The notes under the pieces: model-generated
What the model was told of the DNA's origin: nothing
Seen by the model: only the letters and a program-made list of their open reading frames with translations
The model's database searches: none
Source of the DNA: Candidatus Obscuribacterales bacterium
GTDB lineage: Bacteria > Cyanobacteriota > Vampirovibrionia > Obscuribacterales > Obscuribacteraceae
NCBI GenBank assembly: GCA_019744775.1
Contig: JAIETZ010000004.1
Span: 310,001-374,000 of the forward strand
Direction of reading: 5' to 3'
DNA: 64,000 nt
Shown: positions 24,365-38,670 of the stretch, piece by piece
How positions within the stretch are numbered: the first letter of the stretch is position 1
How the letters are laid out: every line of letters starts with the position of its first letter
Translations under genes and position numbers: made by a program

Positions 24365-24599
24365 AATAATACTCTTATAGTTATAGATTAAAGAGAAGTT
24401 GTTCGCTTCAAACCCGCTTGGTTAGCGATTTGTAACGCGCGTCTGTCAAATTTTATCTCACCAACGCACTACTCCGAAACGATGAAATAGTCACACAATT
24501 CGGCTCTGTCTATACCTAACTACGACCTTCAATATAGCGAGGAAGTCCTTACGATAACTAACTCGTGCTAATGTTGTAAAGAGGTTTGTGGGGGCACGA

Positions 24600-24632
24600 A
24601 CCAGCCTCATCTAGAGGCAAGTGGTTAGGGGA
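24600..24632 (+). promoter_or_regulatory. Leader hairpin ahead of the giant repeat protein
   Basis: In the 290-base gap before the giant secreted protein, GCCTC (24604-24608) pairs with GAGGC (24614-24618), and ACC with GGT just outside through a small internal loop. It ends about 25 bases before the start codon and could be a leader element. I found no convincing -10/-35 pair in the rest of the gap (24365-24600). Confidence 0.3.
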
Positions 24633-24654
24633 CACTTTTAGGGATATAAAAATT

Positions 24655-27600
24655 ATGCGATTCGATCCACGTGCAATCGTTGGATTGCTTTCGGCTGGCC
24701 TACTTTGTCTACAATTGAATAGCTTTGCTCAAGAGGCACCCCCTACCTCGAACGAAGTTGATTTGAGTTCCACTCAACAGAGTGTGGCAGCTACGACTTT
24801 GCCGACATTTAGTTCTGTTTCAATAAATGTCGGCGACGTCGCCAGGACTGTAACACCGACAGACTACTTAACGCCTGCAGAGACAATTGCTGTCATGCAG
24901 GTATTGGCGCAGGGTCAGCAGTCAATTCTACTTGGGGCATCAGGTAACGCAGTTGGCGGCACCTTCCACATCACTTCGTCAATTACTCAAAATCTTCATA
25001 GCCTGGTGATACCGCAAGGGGTCACGGCGATAAGTGACTTTGCAAATATATCTGCACTTTCGATGACCGGCAATTTTGTTAACTCCGGAACTTTCTATGC
25101 TGTTTCCTCCAACTCTGCCATTACACAGGCAGCCATAAACAGCGCAAATATATCCAACTTAGCCGGTGCAACAATTACGTCTGTCCTTCCGACAAGCGGT
25201 TTGGCAGGATGCAGCAATTTAGTTTCAAGTCTTAGTTTGGTATTAAATGCCACGAACAACATCTACAATGCCGGCACTATTGCCAGCAGTGCTGACTTGA
25301 CGATGACTGCAGGCGGTGCCATTACCAATACCTCTACTGCTTCCATGACTGCCGTCATGCAAGCAGTGAATAATGTCAATTTGATGAGTTCTCTTATTGA
25401 AAATTCCGGCGTGATTGCCGCGCAGATGGGCAATATCAATATCGCCAGTGCCACCGCTCAAAATCTCGTTATAAATAATATTGCCGGACGTTTGGAAGCA
25501 GCGCTAGGTTCGATAAATATTAGAGACGCAAATTTCACCAGCAAGAATCACATGTTGCTTTGGGGCGGCGATGTTGTGAGCGAAGTTTTGAATATTTATT
25601 CCGGAACTGGAGTTGCCAGAGTTAACGTCAATGACCTAGTGGGACTCACCAATATTTATGCAGGTGAGGCTCATGTACAAGCAGCAACCAGCTCTTTAAA
25701 CTTAGGCACGATTGAACTTTCCGGTGATCCAACTTTCTATAACACCTTGGGAGACGTAACCATTAATGGTCCACTGGAATTCGCCGGTGCACCGCTGGCA
25801 GTTGTCGCAAAAGGTGACATACTCACAGCTTCAGGCGTCGGCAATATCAAAACGAGTTCTACAACAGGACATGCAGGAGCCATAACACTTATCGCCGGTG
25901 CTGATGTGCACTTAGTGTCTGGAGGTCCTAATGATGTTTTGCCAACCAATCCTCAAAATCCCGGCGACACGACAACACAACTAGAAATCCGAGGCGCCAG
26001 CTCAACAGGCGGCAGCATCACACTGACAAATGTCACTGCTCTGGAAGCTGAAGGGTCGACAACCAGCGGAACAGGAGATGGCGGTGCAATTACACTAATT
26101 GCTTTTGCTGATCCGGACGACGGCTCGAAAGGTGTTATCAGCGTGCCGACAGGTTTAACAATTAAATCCGGAGGACGTCACGCCAACGGCAATGTGACAA
26201 TTATTGCCGGAGCGACATCCGGAACATCAATCACTACAGGCGCTATAAATGTCAACTCGGTAGGATCATCAACAAACGTCAATGGCACATCACAAGACAC
26301 GATAACGGCCTACGCAGCAACGCCAACGCTAACCGCCGGCACCTATGTATATATTCAAAACGGAGCAATGACAGGTTCATTCACACCGGGCACATTGCAA
26401 TCTGCAACAGTGAATTTAGGCACATTGACAGCTAAAGCCGCTAACATAGATATCAATGCCGGTGGCAACGTGACTATTAGTTCAATTGCCGACAGTTCAA
26501 CTGCCGGCACCGGATCATATGACGGCGGTAGTGTCGTGATTCACTCCGGTGCTGATGTATCACTAGGAGCCGTCACGGCAAGTGGCGTCGGCACGGGCAA
26601 GGGTGGAAACGTTGATATCTCCGGCGACGGAGTCGTATCAGCAACTAGTGTAACAGCCAGCGCTTCCACATCCGGAGCCGGCGGTACTATTGCCATGTAT
26701 GGAGGCACTTCGCTTACTCCTGGAACCGTGACTGCTGCTAGAGTCGGCAGCTTTGCCGGCGGCAAAGTCACACTATCCGGTACTGATGTAATACTCAAAA
26801 CAGTCACAACAACAGGCGGACCATTGGCAGTTGTGGCCTCAGGAAATATCACGACCGCCTCTTTACCAACAGTTATTGACACATCAAGCACCACAGGTAG
26901 TGGTGGCGCGCTGACGCTTATTGCCGGAGCGGCATTCACAAACACTTCGACCAGCCAGCTTTCTGTAACAGGTGCTTCCACAACCGGCGGCATCATCAAG
27001 CTAATTACGCCGAATGCAATTACTGGCCTCACAAGTCAGGGTTCCACAACAAGCGGCACCGGCGCAGGCGGCAATATAACCTTGATCGCCTATGGCAAAC
27101 CATCAGATGGTAGTTTGGGCACAATTCAGCTGCCCTCAACCGTACAAGTGAGAGCCAGTGGCGGCGTGTCTGGTGGTACCAATGGCACTGTCACAATAAT
27201 TGCTGGCGCCGGCAGCGGCACGGCTATCGATATGGGAAGCCTCGCTTCAAATATTGGCACTCTAGGTACAGGTGCAATTACAGTCGGTACGACAGCAGCG
27301 AGCATTACCGGTGGGAGTGTATCAATCAGCGCAGGAGCCATCACTTCAGGATCTTTTGGTCTGGGTACCCAAACATCAGCTGGAGTCAATATCGGGAACT
27401 ACACGTCCGCAGCAAACATATACATTAAGAGCGCATCCGTCACCGACATTTCCTCAATTAATACAAGCGCAAACGGCGGACGTATTGATATCATAAGCGA
27501 CTCAAGTTTGACGGTGACGGCATCATCCGGTACCGGACTAATTATGAGAGCCTCGGGTTCGGGAGCAAACACAATTCTGTTAAGTGCTTCGAGCGGCGCA

Positions 27601-30600
27601 ATTACACTAGCCGATGATCGGACATTTGACGCAGGAACGGGTGGTTCTGTGTCATTTGTAGCCGATTCAGCCGGAGGAGCAATTAATATAAGCTCCGGCA
27701 ACACCGTCACCATTCAAAACAGCACCGCTACGTTCAGAGCGCCTAATATCAATCTCTTGGGAGCCAATTCAAAAATAACTTCAACAAAGACAACCGGCAC
27801 CGGCATCATTATTGATAATGGCACCGTATCGGAAACTCTCACAATCAAGGGACCTGACAGTGCAACAGGTGGCACAATTTCAACTAGCGGTTCATCAGTT
27901 ACTGTGACGGCCAACAACAATCAAGATGTAGCATTCACTAAAGTTGCCGGCACGAACACCTCCACAATTAATTTCAACGCGCCAACCACAGTAACAGCAA
28001 CCAATTCTACTACGAGTATCGCCAGCAGCGTGACCGTGGCAACAAACAACGCATTTACTTTCAACGCAAATAACGGCACCTTCACCAACAACGGCACTAT
28101 TTCCTCAACAGACACCACCTTAAGAGTGCAAAGTACCGGAACTCTGCTCTTAAACGGTACTCCGGCAGCGGCAACTTCGATTACCGGCACTAACGCACAA
28201 ATGATTGTATCTGCCGCTTCGAACTTAACGGTTGCATCAGATTATGCATTCAGTCTCAGTTCGACTGGCACTGCCAGTATCTCGTCAACAAGTGGCTCTG
28301 TTGAATTACAATCCGGTGCAGAAGTAACAGTCAGCGGCGGCAGCAGTCTTTCATCGACAACGCCTTTATTGGCAGTATCCACATCCAACCTGAAACTTAA
28401 CGACGGCTCCGGTTTCATTATTAATAAAACAAGTAATATGGGAGCACAGTTTACTTCTCCGACCAGCACCTTAACCGTAACTTTGGCAAACGACAGCGAC
28501 GCACATGTTCAAACCACAGGCGCAAGTCTTTCATTTGCCGCCACTGGCACATCCGCAGCTGTTAACTTCACCAAGTCCGCAGGCGCTGACGCATCAAGCC
28601 TAGCAGTCACAGGTGGCACCGTAACGGTAACCTCAGCCGATTCAATATCAATTGGTGCAGCTGTAACAGTGTCAACCAATAACACAACATCACTCACGTC
28701 TAATTCACTAAGACAAAATGGAGCGCTAACAGCCAGTCAGGGTAATGTGGACATAACCACAAACACGGTAACAGCTAATGGATCTATCTCGGCAACTCAA
28801 TCAGGTGCGACGATAACCGTTCACAATCAAAGCAGCCCGACAACAGCCATGCAACTATCAGGCGATCTCGCCTTTGCCGGTGGTGCCGTAACAATTACCA
28901 GCAATGGTACGGCCTTAACCATTGCCAGTGGTTCCGACATTAGTGCAGACAATGACATCACGATTAATAACACCGGCGCAAACGTCACTGTCGCCGGCTC
29001 AATTTCAGCTCCCTCCAAGACAGTTGCTGTTAACATTTCCGGTTCCGGAAATGTGCTTGGCGGTGGTGGAACCATCGCCGCAGACAGCGTTGAATTTTCT
29101 CTCGCCAACGGAGATATAGGCACATCCAGCCAGCCAATTTCAACAGATACCGGTGACATATCCATCTCCTCATGCGACGACGTATACATAAGTAATGTCT
29201 CGCAGCTCAATTTCACGAATTTCGGCGGCGGAAATATTGGTCTATTCACCGGAGATGATCTCTACATCGACCAGACCATTAATATTGCTGGAAACATCCA
29301 ACTGGTAACCGCTGGCACTCTCCATCTGGACAATACTCATTCCTTGACCTCCACAAGCGGTCAAATTACCCTCGGCGCAGATCTTTTGGAAATCAATGGA
29401 AGTATTACCGCCGGGCAAATTACTCTCTATTCTGCCGGAACTCGCGAAATTGCCGTCGGCAGTACAACAAATGTGAGCGGCAAAGTCGATCTCAATACAT
29501 CTGTCTTGTCCTTGCTTTCCACCTCACAGTTAACAATAGGCAAATCCGACAGTTCAGCCAACATCAGCCTTGCAGGCACCGTAACTCTCTCAAGCATGAG
29601 CGCTGTGCCAGTTACTAATCTGACATTTGCTACGGCAGGAAATTTCTCATCATCAACTTATGCAATTCAAGCTGGCTCCAACACAGTCAACTTCGTTGCC
29701 GCAGGAACCGTAACTGTTGGTAGCCTCACCGGCACGGCTCCAGTACTAACAATGACCGGCGGCAACGTTACACTGACTGCCAGCGTCACCGATCTACATT
29801 TAGGCAGCTCGTCAGTCAACACGATGAATCTCACTGTGGCAGGCAACATAGTTATCGACCAAAATGTATCCAGCACTGGTTCAGCAAGCTTAATAACTAC
29901 AGGTAATACATCTCTGAGCGTGGCTTCAGGCAAAACACTAAGCTCGACTAACGGACCGATGACAATTAGCGCTCGCAGTTTGAGTCTGTCAGGAAATGTG
30001 ACTGTTAGCTCCGGATCTTTGACAATTTATCCCAATGACAGTCAAGCCGTAAAAGTAGGAGCCTCAGGAACCACCTCAGGAGTATTCAACCTGACCACAG
30101 GAGTTTTGAGTCACGTATCAGCAACTTCTTTGGTAATTGGAAAATCTACAATGTCCGGCAACATAACTATTGGCGGTAACATCGACCTGAGCACGATAGC
30201 GGCAAGCTCATTGCCGAGCATGACTTTCTTGACGGCAGGTACATTCAACTCAAACAACAACTCATTTACCTTGGGTTCAGGTCAACTCGTAGTAACGTCT
30301 GGTGGCGATCTATCAATAAACGGAATTACGGGCACAAACCCAACTGTCACATTAACCGGCATGGGAGTTTGGCTATTAAGCCCAATCTCCACATCGGCGG
30401 GCACCATATCTGTCACAGCAAATTCATGGCTCGCCATTTCCGGCGATATCACCATGTCCAGCGGCGGCACATTGACGGTAGCCCAAGTAACCAGCAATGG
30501 TCCATTTAACATCAATGCCAATATTGGCGGAAGCTCAACAACGGTAAATCTAAGCTCGGCTTGCTGGCAAGGACTATCACAATTGTCCGGTGTAGTAATT

Positions 30601-32715
30601 GCAAATTCGTTAACTTTAACCGTAACCGGTGGCAACATCGGTACTTCGAGCAACCGCTTCGATACACAAGCTTCGGCAATAACGGTAAACGCCAGTAACC
30701 GAAATGCGTACCTGGCAAATTCCGGAACACTTACTCTAAACAGCTCTACTGCCGGCTACTTAGATTTGAGCAATGACAATAACATGACCGTATCAGGAGC
30801 GCTCAGCACCAGTAGCATGCAACTTGCAACTTCGGCTAATAATGGCTCAATCACCATAAGCAATAACATTAGCTCCCCGAGCTATTTAGTACTGTCGGCT
30901 CATGGCTCCGGCAATATATCGCAGACGACAGGTTCTATCAGCACAAGTGCTCTCTGTTTGATTTCAACCTCAGGAAATATTGGTAGCAGCACAGCCAAAA
31001 TAAACACAAACGCATTTTACCTGCAAGTAGCCACAACTGGAAACGGATACATCCAGTCGACTGGTTCAGTGTATGTCGTACAACCTACAAGCGGAAATAC
31101 GTTGTCTATTCAGTCAGGTGGACAGTTAGAAGTTGGTTCAACAATCAACGCCACCACGCTTACACTGGCGAGTGCCGGAACAATCATCATTACCGGTAAT
31201 ATTACAGCCACAACAGCGACACTTAATGGCAGCGGCAATGGAAACATTTTACGCAACGGCGGCGTTATTACTGCCACCACACTTGCTTTGTCGACTGGCT
31301 CAGGCACAATAGGCACATCAAGCAACAAAATATCCACAACAGCAACCAGCATCTCTGTAAGCAATACTGGCGGACTGCATCTAAATTCAACCAACACCGG
31401 AACAGTAACGCTAACAAGCATTGCCAGCGGCTACGCAGATGTCAGCGTGGCTGGAGCCATGGATGCAACTGGTGACGTAAATGGCACCTTCGGTGTTGAG
31501 CTTAATAGCTCTGGAGCCATGACCGTCAATGATGTTGCAGCAACAAACGGCAGTGTGTCGTTAACTGCAGACGGGGGCACACTAACAATTGCAGCCGGAG
31601 CCGTTGTGCGAGCAGACGAAGGCAATTTGAATATTAGACAAAACGACACGACAAACGGCTATATCCTAATTGATGCCGGAGCTAATATTGGAGCATTCAC
31701 AGTCGGCACTCCCAATGCCAGCAAGGGCAACGTCACAATAACTATCGGAGCGCCACCATCAACGCCGACAGCAGGAAGCACTCCATCCAACGTCACAGAA
31801 TACATCGTCGCTGGTGGACAAATCTTCTACGGCGCAAACGGCATAGACGCCCAACCGTCAACCAACACCTTAAACGCGATTGGCGGCACAATGATCTTCG
31901 ACACCGGCAGTCGCTCGTCGTCAGCTATTACATTGGGTGGCGGCGTCACAATCACTGCTGATCCGCCACTTCTCCCGGATGACTCCTTAGTACCAGGCGG
32001 ACCGGATGCAGGAATTAACCTCGGCTTTTCCGACATAGTAATCGAATCTCATCATCTAGATGGAAATTACATAAATCCATTCCTGCAACCAATTGCCTAT
32101 ACGCCATCTATCGCACCTGATGAAGAGATTCTCGAACCAATCAAAGGAATGGCACGCACCGAATTCGGTACATCAACGATAAGACACTCGCAATTTTCAA
32201 AATTCAATCTTGAAGAAGGCTATGTCTCTCACAGCTCAGGCGACATTCTTGTTGAAACCAAGTCCGACGCAGTACGTATCGTTGCAGGCAAGCACTCTGT
32301 ACAGATCGCGCCGAACACGGTAGTCCTAATATCCAAAGAAGCTCAACTCATCAAAGTCAGACCGCTCTATGAAACCAGCTCCAACGCAGTCAGAGTCTCA
32401 ACAGGCAACATGTCCACACGCGTATTTGCCGGACAAGAACTCATTCTGGCTGAAGACGAAGACTCACTAAAACAGACTCTAGGAAATGATTCCATCGGAC
32501 GCAGAAAAACACACATGGACCCAATACCAAACAATGGCATCATTCATCGCTGCGAAGTCTCGCCAATTTCTCTGATAGAGAACAATTACATACTGACCAA
32601 ACTCATACAAAGTACGCATGAGCGCGACAAGCAAGTTACGAAGAAACTAGTAAAAATGGCCGCATGCATGATGTCCGTCACCAACAGCCACGGACCATAC
32701 TCCAGCAAGCCCTAA
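24655..32715 (+). CDS. Giant secreted beta-repeat protein with FecR-like C-terminus
   Basis: A 2,686-residue exported protein. The signal peptide covers residues 1-26 (ending SFAQ), and from there to about residue 2,400 the chain is Ser/Thr/Gly/Ala-rich with short alternating strands such as GNITLIA and GTVTVGS, typical of right-handed beta-helix adhesins of the filamentous haemagglutinin style. Two long internal duplications are visible: residues about 382-532 against 722-862, and about 1,588-1,780 against 1,788-1,985. The last 190 residues change character; residues about 2,500-2,600 resemble a FecR-type beta domain (GDILVETKSDAVRIVAGKH, then a NMSTRVFAGQELILAED strand). I chose the ATG at 24655 because it directly opens a signal peptide; an in-frame TTG lies at 24586. 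Likely a surface adhesin or matrix protein (inference). Confidence 0.8.
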   Translation: MRFDPRAIVGLLSAGLLCLQLNSFAQEAPPTSNEVDLSSTQQSVAATTLPTFSSVSINVGDVARTVTPTDYLTPAETIAVMQVLAQGQQSILLGASGNAVGGTFHITSSITQNLHSLVIPQGVTAISDFANISALSMTGNFVNSGTFYAVSSNSAITQAAINSANISNLAGATITSVLPTSGLAGCSNLVSSLSLVLNATNNIYNAGTIASSADLTMTAGGAITNTSTASMTAVMQAVNNVNLMSSLIENSGVIAAQMGNINIASATAQNLVINNIAGRLEAALGSINIRDANFTSKNHMLLWGGDVVSEVLNIYSGTGVARVNVNDLVGLTNIYAGEAHVQAATSSLNLGTIELSGDPTFYNTLGDVTINGPLEFAGAPLAVVAKGDILTASGVGNIKTSSTTGHAGAITLIAGADVHLVSGGPNDVLPTNPQNPGDTTTQLEIRGASSTGGSITLTNVTALEAEGSTTSGTGDGGAITLIAFADPDDGSKGVISVPTGLTIKSGGRHANGNVTIIAGATSGTSITTGAINVNSVGSSTNVNGTSQDTITAYAATPTLTAGTYVYIQNGAMTGSFTPGTLQSATVNLGTLTAKAANIDINAGGNVTISSIADSSTAGTGSYDGGSVVIHSGADVSLGAVTASGVGTGKGGNVDISGDGVVSATSVTASASTSGAGGTIAMYGGTSLTPGTVTAARVGSFAGGKVTLSGTDVILKTVTTTGGPLAVVASGNITTASLPTVIDTSSTTGSGGALTLIAGAAFTNTSTSQLSVTGASTTGGIIKLITPNAITGLTSQGSTTSGTGAGGNITLIAYGKPSDGSLGTIQLPSTVQVRASGGVSGGTNGTVTIIAGAGSGTAIDMGSLASNIGTLGTGAITVGTTAASITGGSVSISAGAITSGSFGLGTQTSAGVNIGNYTSAANIYIKSASVTDISSINTSANGGRIDIISDSSLTVTASSGTGLIMRASGSGANTILLSASSGAITLADDRTFDAGTGGSVSFVADSAGGAINISSGNTVTIQNSTATFRAPNINLLGANSKITSTKTTGTGIIIDNGTVSETLTIKGPDSATGGTISTSGSSVTVTANNNQDVAFTKVAGTNTSTINFNAPTTVTATNSTTSIASSVTVATNNAFTFNANNGTFTNNGTISSTDTTLRVQSTGTLLLNGTPAAATSITGTNAQMIVSAASNLTVASDYAFSLSSTGTASISSTSGSVELQSGAEVTVSGGSSLSSTTPLLAVSTSNLKLNDGSGFIINKTSNMGAQFTSPTSTLTVTLANDSDAHVQTTGASLSFAATGTSAAVNFTKSAGADASSLAVTGGTVTVTSADSISIGAAVTVSTNNTTSLTSNSLRQNGALTASQGNVDITTNTVTANGSISATQSGATITVHNQSSPTTAMQLSGDLAFAGGAVTITSNGTALTIASGSDISADNDITINNTGANVTVAGSISAPSKTVAVNISGSGNVLGGGGTIAADSVEFSLANGDIGTSSQPISTDTGDISISSCDDVYISNVSQLNFTNFGGGNIGLFTGDDLYIDQTINIAGNIQLVTAGTLHLDNTHSLTSTSGQITLGADLLEINGSITAGQITLYSAGTREIAVGSTTNVSGKVDLNTSVLSLLSTSQLTIGKSDSSANISLAGTVTLSSMSAVPVTNLTFATAGNFSSSTYAIQAGSNTVNFVAAGTVTVGSLTGTAPVLTMTGGNVTLTASVTDLHLGSSSVNTMNLTVAGNIVIDQNVSSTGSASLITTGNTSLSVASGKTLSSTNGPMTISARSLSLSGNVTVSSGSLTIYPNDSQAVKVGASGTTSGVFNLTTGVLSHVSATSLVIGKSTMSGNITIGGNIDLSTIAASSLPSMTFLTAGTFNSNNNSFTLGSGQLVVTSGGDLSINGITGTNPTVTLTGMGVWLLSPISTSAGTISVTANSWLAISGDITMSSGGTLTVAQVTSNGPFNINANIGGSSTTVNLSSACWQGLSQLSGVVIANSLTLTVTGGNIGTSSNRFDTQASAITVNASNRNAYLANSGTLTLNSSTAGYLDLSNDNNMTVSGALSTSSMQLATSANNGSITISNNISSPSYLVLSAHGSGNISQTTGSISTSALCLISTSGNIGSSTAKINTNAFYLQVATTGNGYIQSTGSVYVVQPTSGNTLSIQSGGQLEVGSTINATTLTLASAGTIIITGNITATTATLNGSGNGNILRNGGVITATTLALSTGSGTIGTSSNKISTTATSISVSNTGGLHLNSTNTGTVTLTSIASGYADVSVAGAMDATGDVNGTFGVELNSSGAMTVNDVAATNGSVSLTADGGTLTIAAGAVVRADEGNLNIRQNDTTNGYILIDAGANIGAFTVGTPNASKGNVTITIGAPPSTPTAGSTPSNVTEYIVAGGQIFYGANGIDAQPSTNTLNAIGGTMIFDTGSRSSSAITLGGGVTITADPPLLPDDSLVPGGPDAGINLGFSDIVIESHHLDGNYINPFLQPIAYTPSIAPDEEILEPIKGMARTEFGTSTIRHSQFSKFNLEEGYVSHSSGDILVETKSDAVRIVAGKHSVQIAPNTVVLISKEAQLIKVRPLYETSSNAVRVSTGNMSTRVFAGQELILAEDEDSLKQTLGNDSIGRRKTHMDPIPNNGIIHRCEVSPISLIENNYILTKLIQSTHERDKQVTKKLVKMAACMMSVTNSHGPYSSKP

Positions 32716-32994: not shown

Positions 32995-33945
32995 TTATTT
33001 GTTTGTCTTCGGTTGAGTCATATTGGACCAGATACGCGAAATGTCTTCGCAAGTTGCTTTCAGCCTGGCCTCACCGGGCTTATTTTCGTCCAAACCTTGA
33101 CCAGCATAGTGCAGATCTTCTGCTATCTTGCGAAGCGTATCTTTTGCCGGAAAGGTGTCTGTATTTTTGGGATTTGCCAAATTACGCAAAGCAGATGCAC
33201 CGGCCAGACCTAACATTGCTATTCTCTGTCGCAAATTATCAACAGCATCATCCATAGCATACCTGCGCATAGAATTGAAATCACCGCGATTCAAGGCAAT
33301 CGCATAAGGCGCATATGGATCGCCTGCTGCATGTACGGTTGCTAAAGGATCAACGCCCATGCCGGAAAGGCGGTCAACAACATCACTAGGCAGATTGTCA
33401 TAGAAGGTCGTTATGGCCCCATTTGTAATATCATCCGCACCAGGACTGCCATCTGTCGGCAGTGTATGGTGATGATCCTCAGGACCACCACCGGCTTGTT
33501 GGTGATGATGCGCTTCCGGGTCCATCGCGCTCGAAGCTGCTGCCAAAGGTGATGTTGTCGGTTTCGTTGTTTGACTGGAAGCAGGAGGATCTTTTGAGTT
33601 TACAAAATCATTTAAAGCTGCTGTCGTCGTAGGATCCAGTATAGGCAAATCATCCGATGCCGAACCAAACAATATCCGTTCTAAATTTCTCAATCCAGGG
33701 GACTTGTCCTTATCGCTTTGTGCCGAGGCATTAGTGCCGGATTTCTTATTGGCCAAGCCCATAGGAACAACTTCTGTTTGAGGTTTAACAGATGCTTTTA
33801 CGTTATATGGTCCTCCGGATTTTCCTGTTATTTGCACATCATGCTTGTAACCCGGAGATATTCCGTCTTCTTGAGCGCAGCTAGGCGCAGGAATAGTAGC
33901 TAACGCAACAAGCACGCTTAGTACTGTTGGCTCAAGCTTTTTCAT
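32995..33945 (-). CDS. Secreted protein of unknown family (QITGK-type, paralogue of the upstream gene)
   Basis: A 316-residue exported protein with a signal peptide (residues 1-24, ending SCA). Residues 33-60 contain a QITGKSGGPYNVKASVKP segment that is also found in the same position of the mature N-terminus of the neighbour at 33959-35413, so the two share an N-terminal module. Then come a low-complexity linker rich in Ser/Thr/Pro and a His-rich stretch (HHHQQAGGGPEDHHH near residue 148), which could bind metal. A predicted helical C-terminal third (residues 215-310) follows. No known domain is recognised. It is the fifth and last gene of a minus-strand operon of secreted proteins, 13 bases after its neighbour. 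Confidence 0.7.
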   Translation of the reverse strand: MKKLEPTVLSVLVALATIPAPSCAQEDGISPGYKHDVQITGKSGGPYNVKASVKPQTEVVPMGLANKKSGTNASAQSDKDKSPGLRNLERILFGSASDDLPILDPTTTAALNDFVNSKDPPASSQTTKPTTSPLAAASSAMDPEAHHHQQAGGGPEDHHHTLPTDGSPGADDITNGAITTFYDNLPSDVVDRLSGMGVDPLATVHAAGDPYAPYAIALNRGDFNSMRRYAMDDAVDNLRQRIAMLGLAGASALRNLANPKNTDTFPAKDTLRKIAEDLHYAGQGLDENKPGEARLKATCEDISRIWSNMTQPKTNK

Positions 33946-33958
33946 TTGTACCTGCCTT

Positions 33959-35413
33959 TCAGGCTGTTTCGTTATTGATTCTCATGCACTTGTCGATATC
34001 GAACTCGAGAGCGCTACGCATGCTTCTTTCCGAAGCGCTGCTGCTGCCAACTTGTTCCTTCAAATCCTTGAATCGAGATACAAGTTTCAATGCAAACTCA
34101 CGTGCTTTTTGCTTTTCAGCTGAAGTGTATGAATTGCCGCTGGATACTCTGCCTGCTGCATCAAGTGACATTTCCAAAAACTGCTTGGTCATGCGATTGT
34201 CGCCTCTAGCCAACTTGTCTGCAAGTTTTGCTAGACCTTCGTAATCGTTGGGTCCGACACTCAGATCATCGGCCGCACTGCTTACACGCGAGGGAGATTC
34301 TGATTGCGGAGCTTCCTGCAGGCGTTTGCCGAGATCGGTAAATTCCTGCATTTGGTCATTGAGTGCCTGAGGACTTGGCGCTTGAGCTGTTTGTTTAAGA
34401 GCGGTCAATACTTTTTCGGCTGCGTCTGTGGAGAGTTTATCGCCCATTAGCTTTTGCAACTCGGCTGCAATTTCTTGTGCTGTTGGCCCTTGAGCCGTTT
34501 GCTGATTCTGCTGTCCATCTTGACCCTGTCCTTGCCCACCGCGCATTTGTCCGGCCATTTGGCTTGCCGCTTGCATCATTTGACTTACTAATCCCATGAT
34601 GCCTTGAGCAGTATTCATACCCATTTGATTCATCAAGTTTGGATTGCCGAACATTGCTTGTTCGAAATTGCGCATCATTTGATCTCGCCTTGCCTGAGCA
34701 AATAGGCGACCTAATTGCCTTTGCTGGCGCTGTTGGGCCTGTATTGCAGCTTGCGCCAAAGCCTGCTGCTGCTGGGCTAATTGGTTAAGCCCTTGCTGCA
34801 TTTGATTGGCTGTTTGCTGTTGCTGCTGGGCCATTTGATTAGCTATTTGCTGCTGCTGATTGGCTAACTGTTGATTAGCTTGACGCTGCTGATTAGCAAG
34901 TTGTTGGTTGGCTTGCTGCTGCTGCTGGGCTAATTGCTGATTAGCCTGGCGCTGTTGCTCTTGCAATTGTTTTGCCAATTCCTCTTGCTGCTTCTGCATC
35001 TGCTTAGCCAACTCCTCCTGTTGCTTCTGCATTTGCTCAGCCATCTTTTTAGCGACATCTTCTAGTTCTTGTTTGGTCACAGGAGCATTATTTTGCCCCG
35101 GCTGTTGTGCAGTCTTTTCTTCCGGCTTCTGATTTGGATCTTCCTTCACCAGGTTTTTACCGGCGGCATCCTCTCCAGGCTGCTTAGCTGTTTCGCCAGC
35201 CGGCTTTCTTTCCGGATTCTGAATCACCGACAGAGGCATAGCTTGTGGCGATGCTGGTTTAACGATGGCAGATATCGAATATCCGCCGCCTTCTTTACCG
35301 GTAATTTGGAACGTCGTTGAGTAGGGCTGTTCCTCTGCCACAGACACAGTTGACTGTCCTGCAATAGTCAGCGGCACCAGCAAAGAAAGCAATAAACGAT
35401 TATTTGTCCTCAT
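33959..35413 (-). CDS. Secreted glutamine-rich coiled-coil protein with 11-residue repeats
   Basis: A 484-residue exported protein. The ATG at 35413 follows GAGGAAAAG and opens a signal peptide (residues 1-29, ending SVA); a longer frame from 35527 would overlap the upstream gene. The mature start carries the QITGKEGGGYSISAIVKP segment shared with the next gene. Residues 124-211 are eight successive 11-residue units of the type LAKQMQKQQEE, ANQQLANQQRQ and IANQMAQQQQQ, which predict a hendecad, right-handed-type coiled coil. Further Gln/Met-rich helices run to about residue 300. The C-terminal third (340-480) is helical. It is probably an extracellular or periplasmic fibrous protein (inference). 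No family is recognised. Confidence 0.75.
   Translation of the reverse strand: MRTNNRLLLSLLVPLTIAGQSTVSVAEEQPYSTTFQITGKEGGGYSISAIVKPASPQAMPLSVIQNPERKPAGETAKQPGEDAAGKNLVKEDPNQKPEEKTAQQPGQNNAPVTKQELEDVAKKMAEQMQKQQEELAKQMQKQQEELAKQLQEQQRQANQQLAQQQQQANQQLANQQRQANQQLANQQQQIANQMAQQQQQTANQMQQGLNQLAQQQQALAQAAIQAQQRQQRQLGRLFAQARRDQMMRNFEQAMFGNPNLMNQMGMNTAQGIMGLVSQMMQAASQMAGQMRGGQGQGQDGQQNQQTAQGPTAQEIAAELQKLMGDKLSTDAAEKVLTALKQTAQAPSPQALNDQMQEFTDLGKRLQEAPQSESPSRVSSAADDLSVGPNDYEGLAKLADKLARGDNRMTKQFLEMSLDAAGRVSSGNSYTSAEKQKAREFALKLVSRFKDLKEQVGSSSASERSMRSALEFDIDKCMRINNETA
34781..35044 (-). repeat. Eight tandem 33-base units encoding hendecads
   Basis: The DNA here is a run of eight diverged 33-base units, each encoding 11 residues with A/L/M at the first position and Gln/Asn elsewhere. 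The reading frame is kept throughout and synonymous differences are common, so it is a protein-level repeat and not a recent DNA expansion. Confidence 0.8.
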
Positions 35414-35453
35414 GATCTTTTCCTCAGACAATGGTTGTGTGTGGTGACTCGGA

Positions 35454-36629
35454 CTACTGCGCTGTGCGCTGTCCTCCGGATGACGGATTGATTGTGATGA
35501 CTTGAGAATTCCCGCCCTGCATGTCAATTACATTCGGCGAGCGATTTTCAATTCTCAATTCAACAGGGCCGGCTAGTCCTTCTACTCCATAAACCATAAC
35601 GGTTACTGTTGTAGATTCACCTTTCTTGAGCACAGTCTTTGGAGCACTCATTTTTACTTTCAGGTTGCAATACCTACCTCTTGCAGTTCTGCCGCATTCA
35701 GTAAAGGTAATATCAGTTGGTCCAACAATATTACCAGGGCTTTTCACCACAGTGCCGCGCGGACCTTCTGCTAACGGCGGACATTTAACGCCACCACACT
35801 TAACACCTGTATTGCCAGAATAACCGTCACAGCCACCACCAATTGTAATTGGCTTACCTGTTTGACCAGCTGTCGGCATTGTGCAACCACCAGGTGGATA
35901 GCCTGGGTTCATTGGTTTTTGTGGATGTGGTACCGGCTTTGAACAAACCGGTTGTCCATTGTGTGTTAGAACCAAGTCAATTGGATCTCTTCCCAATCCA
36001 CAGACAAATGTCGGAGGATTCATCGGTGTTGCATTACTAACTGGACAGCTAATTGGTTTCGCCGGCTTGCCGCAAGTGCCGCTATTTTTACTTGTCGTTG
36101 GTTTACTACCAGTGCAAGGCGGTTTGGACGAAGTCTTGGGTGGTTTTGAACATGGTGGTTTCTTTTCACCCGGACACGGTTTTTCTTCTTCAGGAGGACA
36201 TTCCTCAGGCGGCAATTCCGCAATAGGAATCACAGGCGGCATCGTAAATCCTGTAGGCAAACAAGGCGGCGGACAATCCGACGGCAACTTCTCTTGCGGC
36301 GGAGCCGGCTCTTGAGCCTTCTTAACCTCAACTACATAACCATTGAGTTCATCTTCATTTTCTTCTTTTTCTTTAGCGGTCTGTCCGACAGGTTCAGCAA
36401 TTACTGTTCCTGAAAGCGTATCGCCCGTCGCCATATCTTCCGGCAAATTGACACTGATTTTGCCGTTTGGCGTATCAAAAACTGTGGTGTTTAAACCATC
36501 ACCAATTTTGGACGTTGCACTTATTTGGCTTTGTCCAGTGACTTTTGCAATTAGCACCGGATTGTAAGCAATAAGCGTGGTTAAAGCAAAAGTACTTAGG
36601 GTCAACCAACCCAACTTTTTCTTGTTCAT
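35454..36629 (-). CDS. Secreted Cys/Pro-rich protein, TIG-like (paralogue A)
   Basis: A 391-residue exported protein with a signal peptide or anchor at residues 8-30. Residues 45-105 form a module (DTPNGKISVNLPEDMATGDT, an SGTVIAEP strand, then NEDELNGYVVE) that recurs in the next gene upstream at 36766-38094, with the 11-residue NEDELNGYVVE identical in both. Residues 110-225 are extremely Pro/Cys/Lys-rich. The rest contains a Cys-rich segment that looks like a TIG/IPT immunoglobulin-type domain, followed by a strand-rich segment with TVTVMVYGVEGLAGPVELRI. It lacks the C-terminal barrel-like domain of its paralogue. Function unknown; secreted structural or adhesive role likely (inference). 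Confidence 0.72.
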   Translation of the reverse strand: MNKKKLGWLTLSTFALTTLIAYNPVLIAKVTGQSQISATSKIGDGLNTTVFDTPNGKISVNLPEDMATGDTLSGTVIAEPVGQTAKEKEENEDELNGYVVEVKKAQEPAPPQEKLPSDCPPPCLPTGFTMPPVIPIAELPPEECPPEEEKPCPGEKKPPCSKPPKTSSKPPCTGSKPTTSKNSGTCGKPAKPISCPVSNATPMNPPTFVCGLGRDPIDLVLTHNGQPVCSKPVPHPQKPMNPGYPPGGCTMPTAGQTGKPITIGGGCDGYSGNTGVKCGGVKCPPLAEGPRGTVVKSPGNIVGPTDITFTECGRTARGRYCNLKVKMSAPKTVLKKGESTTVTVMVYGVEGLAGPVELRIENRSPNVIDMQGGNSQVITINPSSGGQRTAQ

Positions 36630-36639
36630 TTTCCCGTCC

Positions 36640-36765
36640 TTTTAGAAAAATCCGACTAATTGCGCAATGCGCACGTCGATCCTTTTACGCCACGGGTGTT
36701 ATACCCAGGTGGCAATCATCAGCGCGCCATAATCGCGCTATGTAAACGAATCCTAAGTAAAAATA
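36640..36765 (-). other. Two hairpins in the gap between the paralogue genes
   Basis: This 136-base gap within the operon holds two stem-loops. GCCAC-GGGT with ACCC-AG-GTGGC lies at about 36693-36714, and AGCGCG with CGCGCT (perfect 6-base-pair stem) at 36721-36739. A TGCGCA repeat follows at 36660-36673. They could tune the relative amount of downstream genes, as an internal attenuator or processing site. No terminator-like T run follows on the minus strand. Confidence 0.35.
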
Positions 36766-38094
36766 TTAGCGAGTAAGTGTCCAGCGTCCTGTAGAACCAG
36801 CTTGAGTCCACGTACCTTCCAGCGTTCTTCCGTCAGCGGACAAATTAAGGCTGGCCGTACCATGTACGTTAATCCAATGTTCGTAGTAAGAAAAGTTTAC
36901 AGTGCCGGCTTTGGGATCATAAACGCCTTCTTCAATCACGCCCTGTTTATCCGCCGCTTGCTGCCAATGACCTTTCACTTGCTGCAAACCATTCGGTTGA
37001 TTGCTTACTTCCAGTGTCATTGGACCGTAAGTGGAACTCCATGTACCAGCAATGCTTGGTGTCGCAGGTTGACTAGCTTGCTGTGGAGGCGGTTCAATGG
37101 GTCGAGTACTTCCGTAGGGCTGAAAATAAGTGACATTGATTATTGGCGGTTCCAGCACCCATGCAACGAAACTAAAAGATCCACTTCTTATCGCGCTGAC
37201 ATTCATTGACTTTGTCCAAGTGCCTGTTTGTTTTTCCAGCTTGACTGTTTGTTTGTCGCCACCATCTAGTTGCACGACACCTGGAGCCAAATTGTTAATT
37301 TGAAGATCTACCGGTTCACTTATTCCGTCTAGTCCCCAAACTGTGACAGCAAGAGTGGTTGTCTTGCCGCGTTCAATGTCGGTCAGTCCACATTTTAAGT
37401 CCACAGCAAGAATCGTAAATTTACCAGTGGCAATTGCATTGCCTTCGCGCATTTCAATTGTTGTCGTGCCTTGAACATTGTTGGGACACTCAACCACCAG
37501 CTTGCGTGGCGACTCGCAAAACTTGACCAACTCTTTGCCTGCAACTTTTACAGATGAATTATTAAAATCGCCATCGCACGGACCACGACACTGTATTGGC
37601 CAACCAGCTTGAGCGTAAGGTGGGAGCATGCAAGTCCCTGGATACTTGGCACAAGGAAGCGGTGGAGGCTTATCGTAAATTTTGACGCTGGTCGAACAAA
37701 CTCTTGTGCCCTTCTTATCTTTCAAGACAAGATCAACAATATTGTTGGCTGTCGGCATTACACATTTGAAATCGCCAAGACGGCAAGGAGCTTTCTGATC
37801 GGCGATTTCCACTACATAACCATTTAATTCGTCTTCGTTTTTTGTTTGCTCAGTTTGATTTCTGCCCTTAGGTTCAATAATCACCGAGCCGGATATAGTG
37901 TCACCTTCCGATGTATCATCCGGCAGATTAACTCGCAACTGTCCGTTTTTTGTATTAAACAAGATGGCAGACATTCCACCACCGTTGACAGGCATGGCTG
38001 TTGCTGTTTGAGAATAAGCAGGCTGACAGTCTATGTCAAAGTGAAAAATAAACTGAAGCAGAAGTGCAACCAGAGTGAGAACCCGTAGTGTCAT
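36766..38094 (-). CDS. Secreted Cys-rich TIG-like protein with C-terminal beta domain (paralogue B)
   Basis: A 442-residue exported protein with a signal peptide (residues 1-30). Residues 42-98 carry the same module as paralogue A (FNTKNGQLRVNLPDDTSEGD, then SGSVIIEP and NEDELNGYVVE). Residues 105-215 are a Cys-rich TIG/IPT-like domain with about ten cysteines, so disulfides are likely. Residues 225-320 form a second strand-rich domain with TTTLAVTVWGLDGISEPVDLQI. The last 100 residues (GTWSSTYGPMTLEVSNQ to the end) look like a small beta-barrel seen in many extracellular bacterial proteins. No named family is recognised. It is the second gene of the operon, 32 bases after the Gly-rich protein gene. 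Confidence 0.72.
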   Translation of the reverse strand: MTLRVLTLVALLLQFIFHFDIDCQPAYSQTATAMPVNGGGMSAILFNTKNGQLRVNLPDDTSEGDTISGSVIIEPKGRNQTEQTKNEDELNGYVVEIADQKAPCRLGDFKCVMPTANNIVDLVLKDKKGTRVCSTSVKIYDKPPPLPCAKYPGTCMLPPYAQAGWPIQCRGPCDGDFNNSSVKVAGKELVKFCESPRKLVVECPNNVQGTTTIEMREGNAIATGKFTILAVDLKCGLTDIERGKTTTLAVTVWGLDGISEPVDLQINNLAPGVVQLDGGDKQTVKLEKQTGTWTKSMNVSAIRSGSFSFVAWVLEPPIINVTYFQPYGSTRPIEPPPQQASQPATPSIAGTWSSTYGPMTLEVSNQPNGLQQVKGHWQQAADKQGVIEEGVYDPKAGTVNFSYYEHWINVHGTASLNLSADGRTLEGTWTQAGSTGRWTLTR

Positions 38095-38126
38095 AAACGC
38101 CGCTCTTTCAACTCTAAATGCTGTAC

Positions 38127-38567
38127 CTAGTGACCACTGCAGCTGCTACCAGAACTGTATCCGCCACCGCCGCTGCAAGTCCCGCCGCTGCTATAGCCTC
38201 CACCAGAGCTATATCCACCGGAGGAGCTTCCGCCACCTCCAGAGAATCCACCGCAACTATCAACAATTCCCATCACAGAATTGAAAATACTAAGTCCCGT
38301 GTTCACCGCAGCCGCACACTCTTCCGGTGTTGGTGCAGGGTTATAAACTCTGCCGGTTACGTAGTCTCTGTGAACAGTGAAATGGACGTGGGGATTTTTC
38401 GTGACGATAACAGTACCAACCAAAACATCACTACCGCTGTACTGAGTGCGCGACACACCGCCCTGCAACATTGGGGCCGACGCATCTTGAGCTATTGCGG
38501 GCACGAAAGTTCCAGCGAAAGTTGCTAGTGAAAGCACAAGCACCAATGAGTTACTGATATGCCTCAT
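38127..38567 (-). CDS. Small secreted Gly/Ser/Cys-rich-tail protein
   Basis: A 146-residue exported protein. The ATG at 38567 is preceded by GGGGGA on the minus strand and opens a signal peptide (residues 1-27, ending AIA). The mature region (28-104) has a MLQGGVSRTQYSGSDVLVGTVI segment and a VHFTVHRDYV strand. Residues 105-146 are almost only Gly, Ser and Tyr, in GGYSSGG-type units with Cys at 105, 131 and 143; Cys84 lies before it. Such flexible, cysteine-bearing tails occur in secreted structural and cross-linked proteins. It is the first gene of the five-gene operon. No family recognised. Confidence 0.7.
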   Translation of the reverse strand: MRHISNSLVLVLSLATFAGTFVPAIAQDASAPMLQGGVSRTQYSGSDVLVGTVIVTKNPHVHFTVHRDYVTGRVYNPAPTPEECAAAVNTGLSIFNSVMGIVDSCGGFSGGGGSSSGGYSSGGGYSSGGTCSGGGGYSSGSSCSGH

Positions 38568-38640
38568 ACAAGCATCCCCCCGATCTCGCCACATTCCCTG
38601 TGCCCGTACGAGCACTATTTGAAACAACATGTAAAGTATT

Positions 38641-38670
38641 ATTATCGGGTATACTAAATCACGGTGTCAA
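38641..38670 (-). promoter_or_regulatory. Promoter of the five-gene secreted operon
   Basis: On the minus strand TTGACA (38670-38665) and GATAAT (38646-38641) are separated by 18 bases, a near-consensus sigma-70-type promoter. The start codon of the first operon gene lies 73 bases further on. On the plus strand, TATACT at 38650-38655 may be the -10 of the divergent YbjN-like gene, so the two promoters would overlap. Confidence 0.6.

Follow-up and report, generated by a model that had tools for sequence, protein, structure and literature searches.

What five secreted proteins encoded in a row might be doing together, and why two pairs of them should share modules, are the questions raised by positions 32995 to 38670 of the 64,000-nucleotide stretch of Candidatus Obscuribacterales bacterium DNA analyzed here (“the window”; a window coordinate is the position on contig C4 minus 310000), which comes from a genome of 4.1 Mb that is 98% complete. 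A sequence-only reading had taken the five products for parts of an extracellular fibre, sheath or matrix. The answer that seems the probable one to us, judging from comparisons of sequences and predicted folds, is a different one: the operon would be an extracytoplasmic docking system in which two proteins each contribute a part of one Ig-like domain, the product of gene 3 being the putative “acceptor” and those of genes 4 and 5 the putative “donors”.

Five secreted proteins retained together in Obscuribacteraceae

All five open reading frames (gene 1, 38127..38567; gene 2, 36766..38094; gene 3, 35454..36629; gene 4, 33959..35413; gene 5, 32995..33945; these and all features below lie on the minus strand) have usable starts and encode Sec-type N-termini (signal peptides judged by eye), and the intergenic gaps amount to 32, 136, 40 and 13 bases from gene 1 to gene 5, just as had been described from the letters. 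Purifying selection acting on every one of them (dN/dS 0.03-0.09 versus the nearest genome) and a gene order kept in G001, G002 and G010 (G-numbers denote relatives within the same GTDB family as the window genome) show that these are real coding genes. They do co-occur in relatives from two genera of Obscuribacteraceae, several of whose genomes are fragmented metagenome assemblies: G001 has the whole set in synteny, G002 has it from gene 1 up to the start of gene 4, where its contig ends, and G010, a representative of another genus, carries the operon on contig C30 at a different chromosomal site, genes 1-2-3-4 being followed there by three gene-5 paralogues. The G010 site matching the window context (ribonuclease D, inositol phosphatase, YbjN-like) holds a reduced acceptor and gene-5-like pair instead (L069). 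Synteny in the relatives, coupled with this change of chromosomal site, indicates that the operon behaves as a unit. Neighbours in the window, as assigned by Pfam, are a YbjN-type chaperone, an inositol monophosphatase and ribonuclease D; Obscuribacterales, i.e., non-photosynthetic Cyanobacteriota, is where close relatives of gene 2 are found, and a plasmid search with gene 2 as the query gave no match.

That the proteins belong to no recognised family holds for the five themselves by Pfam and fails for their relatives, the IPT/TIG domain (PF01833) being matched in 8/28 homologues of genes 2 and 3 (best E 9.3e-7), with no Pfam match to it in genes 2 and 3 themselves. Structure searches (Foldseek run on genes 2 and 5) did not yield five unrelated functions.

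The single near-consensus promoter proposed earlier has fared worse. The TTGACA-18-GATAAT promoter-like site (38641..38670) scores 11/12 against the consensus; of its sequence, however, only what follows the -35 box is conserved, the box itself not being kept in G002 and G010, and the region contains fewer such sites than shuffled sequence does (4 vs 8.2 +/- 2.8). The 19-base GGGTATAAcAcCCGTGGCG block in the gap between genes 2 and 3 (36688..36706), kept in four genomes of two genera, is a candidate second promoter or operator, and the conserved GGGTATAAaA stretch in this gap suggests that a second promoter ahead of gene 3 is likely. A GGG-N-TGGCG regulatory motif that the leader of gene 1 seemed to share with the gap between genes 2 and 3 was considered as well and dropped, since its spacing had been miscounted and its matches do not exceed chance.

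Rods with complete or truncated Ig-like domains

Genes 2 and 3 encode rods of tandem beta-sandwich domains (D1, IPT/TIG and Ig-like, with a further domain, D4, only in gene 2), and the NEDELNGYVVE segment reported for both is indeed identical in the two copies. The 442-aa gene 2 product was modelled by AF2 with a mean pLDDT of 85 as four consecutive beta domains: the lineage-specific D1 (37675..38007; LPDDxxxGDTISGTVxxEPKG...NEDELxGYVVE), the IPT/TIG-like domain (37441..37674), the Ig-like D3 (37147..37440; profile match 1-88 of 89, hence complete) and, past a disordered linker, the eight-strand D4 (36769..37062), which is widespread in the family. D3 is closed as a well-folded Ig domain by its terminal (F-G) beta-hairpin TKSMNVSAIRSGSFSFVAWVLEPP (37144..37215; AF2 strands 293-301 and 309-313, block at position 294 with a pLDDT of about 93), and it is this hairpin that is absent from gene 3. 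The gene 2 copy of G001 (L078:5076-6403) is frameshifted inside D4, which may be a metagenome assembly error.

Foldseek searches with the gene 2 model returned generic tandem Ig/IPT proteins, with S-layer proteins among the weak matches. Given that the top match was the Bacteroides ovatus surface glycan-binding protein SGBP-B (E 3.7e-7), the rods might be read as glycan-binding surface proteins like those of Bacteroides; this match, however, reflects a generic layout of tandem Ig domains (TM 0.22-0.25, 11% identity) that contactin, plexin and S-layer proteins display too, and Pfam scanning of the flanking proteins brought up neither a glycosidase nor a SusCD-like gene, which leaves glycan binding a very improbable explanation, and the reading was rejected. 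Searches with D4 in Pfam and among PDB sequences gave nothing significant; this unannotated beta domain recurs elsewhere in fusion with secreted proteins of caspase-like (DACHSGA) and OmpA-like type (L015, L018, L025; sequences read by eye).

The gene 3 product consists of D1, a Cys/Pro-rich linker, TIG and an Ig domain that is truncated (35490..35663; profile match 2-66 of 89, without the F-G hairpin), its Ig homology stopping at GGNSQVITI, 11 residues ahead of the stop codon. Comparing the sequences that follow TIG reveals two C-terminal classes. The complete one, running through “GGNxQ...TxxxxVxALxxGxFxFxAxV”, comprises gene 2 plus four further types of sequence (G010 C11, G010 C53, the G018 gene, which is divergent, and a protein of 700-1100 aa present in most family genomes), whereas members of the truncated one, gene 3 and its relatives, end or turn into low complexity directly after “GGNxQxITI”. 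The complete-Ig profile found 55 matches across 50 family genomes, 46 of which reach the end of the domain (85-88 of 89), while nine end at 60-72; these nine are gene 3 of G000, G001, G002 and G010, the G018 homologue, G039:C298, G010:C52, G000:C13 and the G002 orthologue of the latter, C201. A putative acceptor with an incomplete Ig-like domain, of the kind that takes part in donor-strand complementation, is thus present nine times over. The 700-1100-aa protein, a single one in most family genomes, has a D1-like domain, TIG and a complete Ig at its end (G000:C4:663204-663398 and its orthologues, L151-L175), and is a candidate ancestor of the split Ig.

The truncation of gene 3 had escaped the earlier interpretation, and so had a D1-like piece in gene 1. 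The latter gene encodes a secreted 146-aa protein with a conserved GLSIFNSVMGIV segment and a Gly/Ser/Cys tail ending in SC-SGH; its profile similarity to D1 (GSDVLVGTVIVTKNP...TGRVY, 38328-38489, residues ~27-80) spans 41 columns and was equalled by 0/150 shuffles at an hhalign probability of only 15-61%, and is no more than suggestive. Gene 1 would possibly contribute another partial domain and is probably an accessory piece.

Downstream, the convergent neighbour of the operon (24586-32715) encodes a 2709-aa secreted haemagglutinin-like repeat protein, the G010 homologue of which (L071:1471-6846) overlaps the start of a gene-2-like complete-Ig gene by 1 base, hinting at a tie between the haemagglutinin-like and gene-2-like families.

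The putative donor hairpin and the F-G hairpin of the Ig domain

Genes 4 and 5 do have the QITGKxGG module in common, as had been noticed (hhalign, 55 columns, Prob 97.9, E 4e-13), and it is the sole part that they share. In the gene 4 product, the N-terminal hairpin YSTTFQITGKEGGGYSISAIVKP (35255..35323, by profile match) precedes the coiled coil reported earlier, which turns out to be a hendecad one of seven 11-residue repeats (34793..35023; lag-11 identity 0.58 vs about 0.25 at other lags, DNA period 33; G001 has exactly one repeat fewer), and a C-terminal FDIDKC region. The gene 5 product carries its hairpin YKHDVQITGKSGGPYNVKASVKP (33781..33849, by profile match) ahead of a His-rich linker and an all-helical C-terminal domain (33016..33453), for which Foldseek found no significant PDB fold match, the domain being a generic helical bundle. 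AF2 folds this domain (pLDDT mostly 80-94) and leaves the donor module at low confidence and mostly unstructured alone, as might be expected of a segment needing a partner.

Elsewhere, donor modules likewise occupy the mature N-terminus of unrelated proteins, and in one case a C-terminus, that of another secreted protein (G010:C25, L115), a placement to be expected of a portable element for docking. Small proteins (G000:C11, C13) are among these other donors, as is G002:C395 (L114), in which the hairpin is fused to a possible CHAP-like domain (Pfam E 0.02, below the cut-off). Such diversity of donors (coiled-coil, helical, small, possibly CHAP-bearing and with the hairpin at the C-terminus) suggests one acceptor with exchangeable cargoes.

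The donor module resembles precisely what gene 3 is missing. Its profile (alignment A5, 14 sequences, the module common to genes 4 and 5) aligns without gaps to columns 67-89 of 91 of the complete-Ig profile, i.e., the F-G hairpin (E 3.2e-5, score 26.0), and none of 200 column shuffles did as well (best 16.0). The same register was recovered with 32 complete Ig domains (E 6e-5, 0/200 shuffles) and, more weakly, with the conserved Ig domains of the large proteins alone (E 0.0012), domains far removed from that of gene 2, and the hydrophobic pattern of the donor equals that of the F-G hairpin residue by residue. No comparable match of the donor profile was found to D1, TIG or D4, 72 windows of which score at most 11.6 against the Ig profile; nor did it match the mixed alignment A1 over the Ig region, which is explained by most rows of A1 having no Ig domain. 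It should be kept in mind that the hairpin is short (23 residues) and that the hhalign probability of the match is 65-73%. When the donor HMM was run against 5363 translated segments, the top matches after the donors and one G023 protein were the F-G hairpins of gene 2 orthologues, at insignificant E-values; the weak match in G023 (E 0.003) falls in a large protein resembling alpha-2-macroglobulin and shows that Ig-type hairpins in general share part of this pattern. A segment similar to the missing strands and sitting at a free terminus of a putative partner, as in donor-strand complementation, is thus found.

The two halves also travel together. A donor gene is present at the locus of all nine truncated Ig domains, in eight of them as the gene that follows immediately downstream on this strand, 11-96 bases away (at G010:C52, the donor lies 2.7 kb off on the opposite strand), whereas of the 41 complete Ig domains that stand alone, away from these loci, none is accompanied by one. 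Fisher p is 4e-10 for this link and 6e-8 for the coincidence at the genome level, values uncorrected for shared ancestry; with each distinct type of locus counted once, the contrast is about 5/5 vs 0/3. Among the 50 family genomes, the six with strong donor hits (G000, G001, G002, G010, G018 and G039) are the very six with a truncated Ig, and the donors are found in the same six among 382 genomes of the class. Over the six loci compared, the divergence of acceptors correlates with that of donors (r 0.94, permutation p 0.006, 4/720), partly owing to four of these loci being species orthologues. Two donor genes on G000:C11 have no acceptor nearby.

One might object that the hairpin is simply an N-terminal signal, either generic or peculiar to the lineage, that sorts proteins to the envelope or anchors them there, its Ig likeness being a convergence of beta-hairpins. 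It does follow a signal peptide always except in G010:C25, it decorates unrelated proteins and the pattern is short; the match, however, is register-exact to one hairpin of one domain and not to others, and a general sorting signal would be expected to occur more widely than in the six genomes with a truncated Ig, so we consider this explanation unlikely. The earlier proposal, in which five separately folded secreted proteins build a fibre, sheath or matrix and the shared modules are mere family signatures, seems just as doubtful: secretion, a spacing resembling that of co-transcribed genes, the coiled coil, the Gly/Ser/Cys tail, the tandem Ig rods and the weak S-layer fold matches are all in keeping with it, but it leaves unexplained why Ig domains of the gene 3 type break off ahead of the hairpin only at loci that also have a hairpin gene.

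A minor observation concerns the surroundings of some of these donors: an unannotated secreted family with Cys-rich segments and a common helical region (by eye) adjoins the donor genes at G039:C298 and G000:C11 (L080:498-1571, L087:6741-8432).

A candidate docking system and its known counterparts

What stands of the earlier interpretation is that the proteins are secreted, made together and probably assembled together, the shared modules now looking like the two halves of an Ig domain; the fibre, sheath or matrix has no such support, for no feature tested confers polymerisation and the pairing predicts several proteins docking on one acceptor rather than a chain. In the mechanism proposed, gene 3 would provide a D1-TIG-Ig rod whose last domain is short of its two C-terminal strands, and removal of the signal peptide from the gene 4 and gene 5 products would leave the missing F-G beta-hairpin at their N-termini. 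This hairpin would then insert into the open Ig domain and complete it, as in donor-strand complementation, so that one acceptor could carry alternative cargoes: the coiled-coil protein, the helical-domain protein and donors encoded elsewhere. Gene 2 would be the paralogue that needs no donor, as it possesses the hairpin itself, and it has an additional domain of envelope type. From the truncation, the hairpin similarity, the co-localization of the genes and their co-occurrence, which are observations, we infer physical binding, a surface location, and an adhesion or matrix role; assembly of the gene products at the surface is likely, and the proteins of genes 3 and 4/5 probably snap together outside the cell without a chaperone or usher.

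Among the nearest precedents found are chaperone-usher pili, in which, as in the split Ig, an incomplete Ig-like fold is completed by the N-terminus of another secreted subunit: FimA of type 1/P pili has an Ig-like fold lacking the C-terminal strand, which an N-terminal extension of another subunit supplies (PMC6615685). Here, by comparison, two strands (a hairpin) would be donated, acceptor and donor are different proteins and the donors carry no acceptor of their own, so no chain is implied. Neither the usher (PF00577) nor the PapD-type chaperone (PF00345) was matched in the 98%-complete genome, with the control (E. coli for the usher) positive in both searches, and the system is therefore not a chaperone-usher pilus, though the joint should work alike. 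In Bacillus subtilis, the N-terminus of TapA is donated to the Ig-like fold of TasA by strand complementation without an usher (PMC10151520, PMC9674648); these matrix proteins are secreted, as are those of genes 1-5, but a single strand is donated and the filaments grow as homopolymers, unlike the hairpin docking suggested here. Pfam searches of genes 1-5 found no sequence similarity to TasA/TapA and no match to Camelysin (PF12389, TasA), for which one sub-threshold match was obtained in a neighbour of a relative. The Ig-like domain of the RTX adhesins FrhA and MpIBP is discontinuous in sequence (PMC10865825), its parts lying in a single chain on either side of an inserted domain, whereas here the split would run between two proteins; in the literature covered (subscription journals lying outside), split Ig domains were found only within one chain. 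IPT/TIG surface proteins likewise have TIG followed by an Ig-like domain, while D1, an Ig that is truncated and partners acting as donors are peculiar to the gene 2/3 family.

We lean, with less confidence than for the splitting itself, toward a natural and portable split-Ig docking device: a dedicated acceptor without the F-G hairpin and exchangeable, terminally tagged cargoes, operating outside the cytoplasm with no PapD-type chaperone or usher and produced when a widespread Ig-bearing protein underwent fission. If true, this would extend donor-strand complementation beyond pilus assembly, to a docking code of modular design with a single acceptor for several tagged cargoes, and provide a first testable extracytoplasmic assembly mechanism in non-photosynthetic Cyanobacteriota; the 23-residue hairpin tag and its Ig acceptor could possibly serve as a protein-coupling tool. 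As an aside, the acceptor and donor of G039 (L080:2186-3493 and L080:1586-2173) bear similar C-terminal tails, GGTxIxTPP...VIARQVxPxGxVVQ, and so does the C13 donor.
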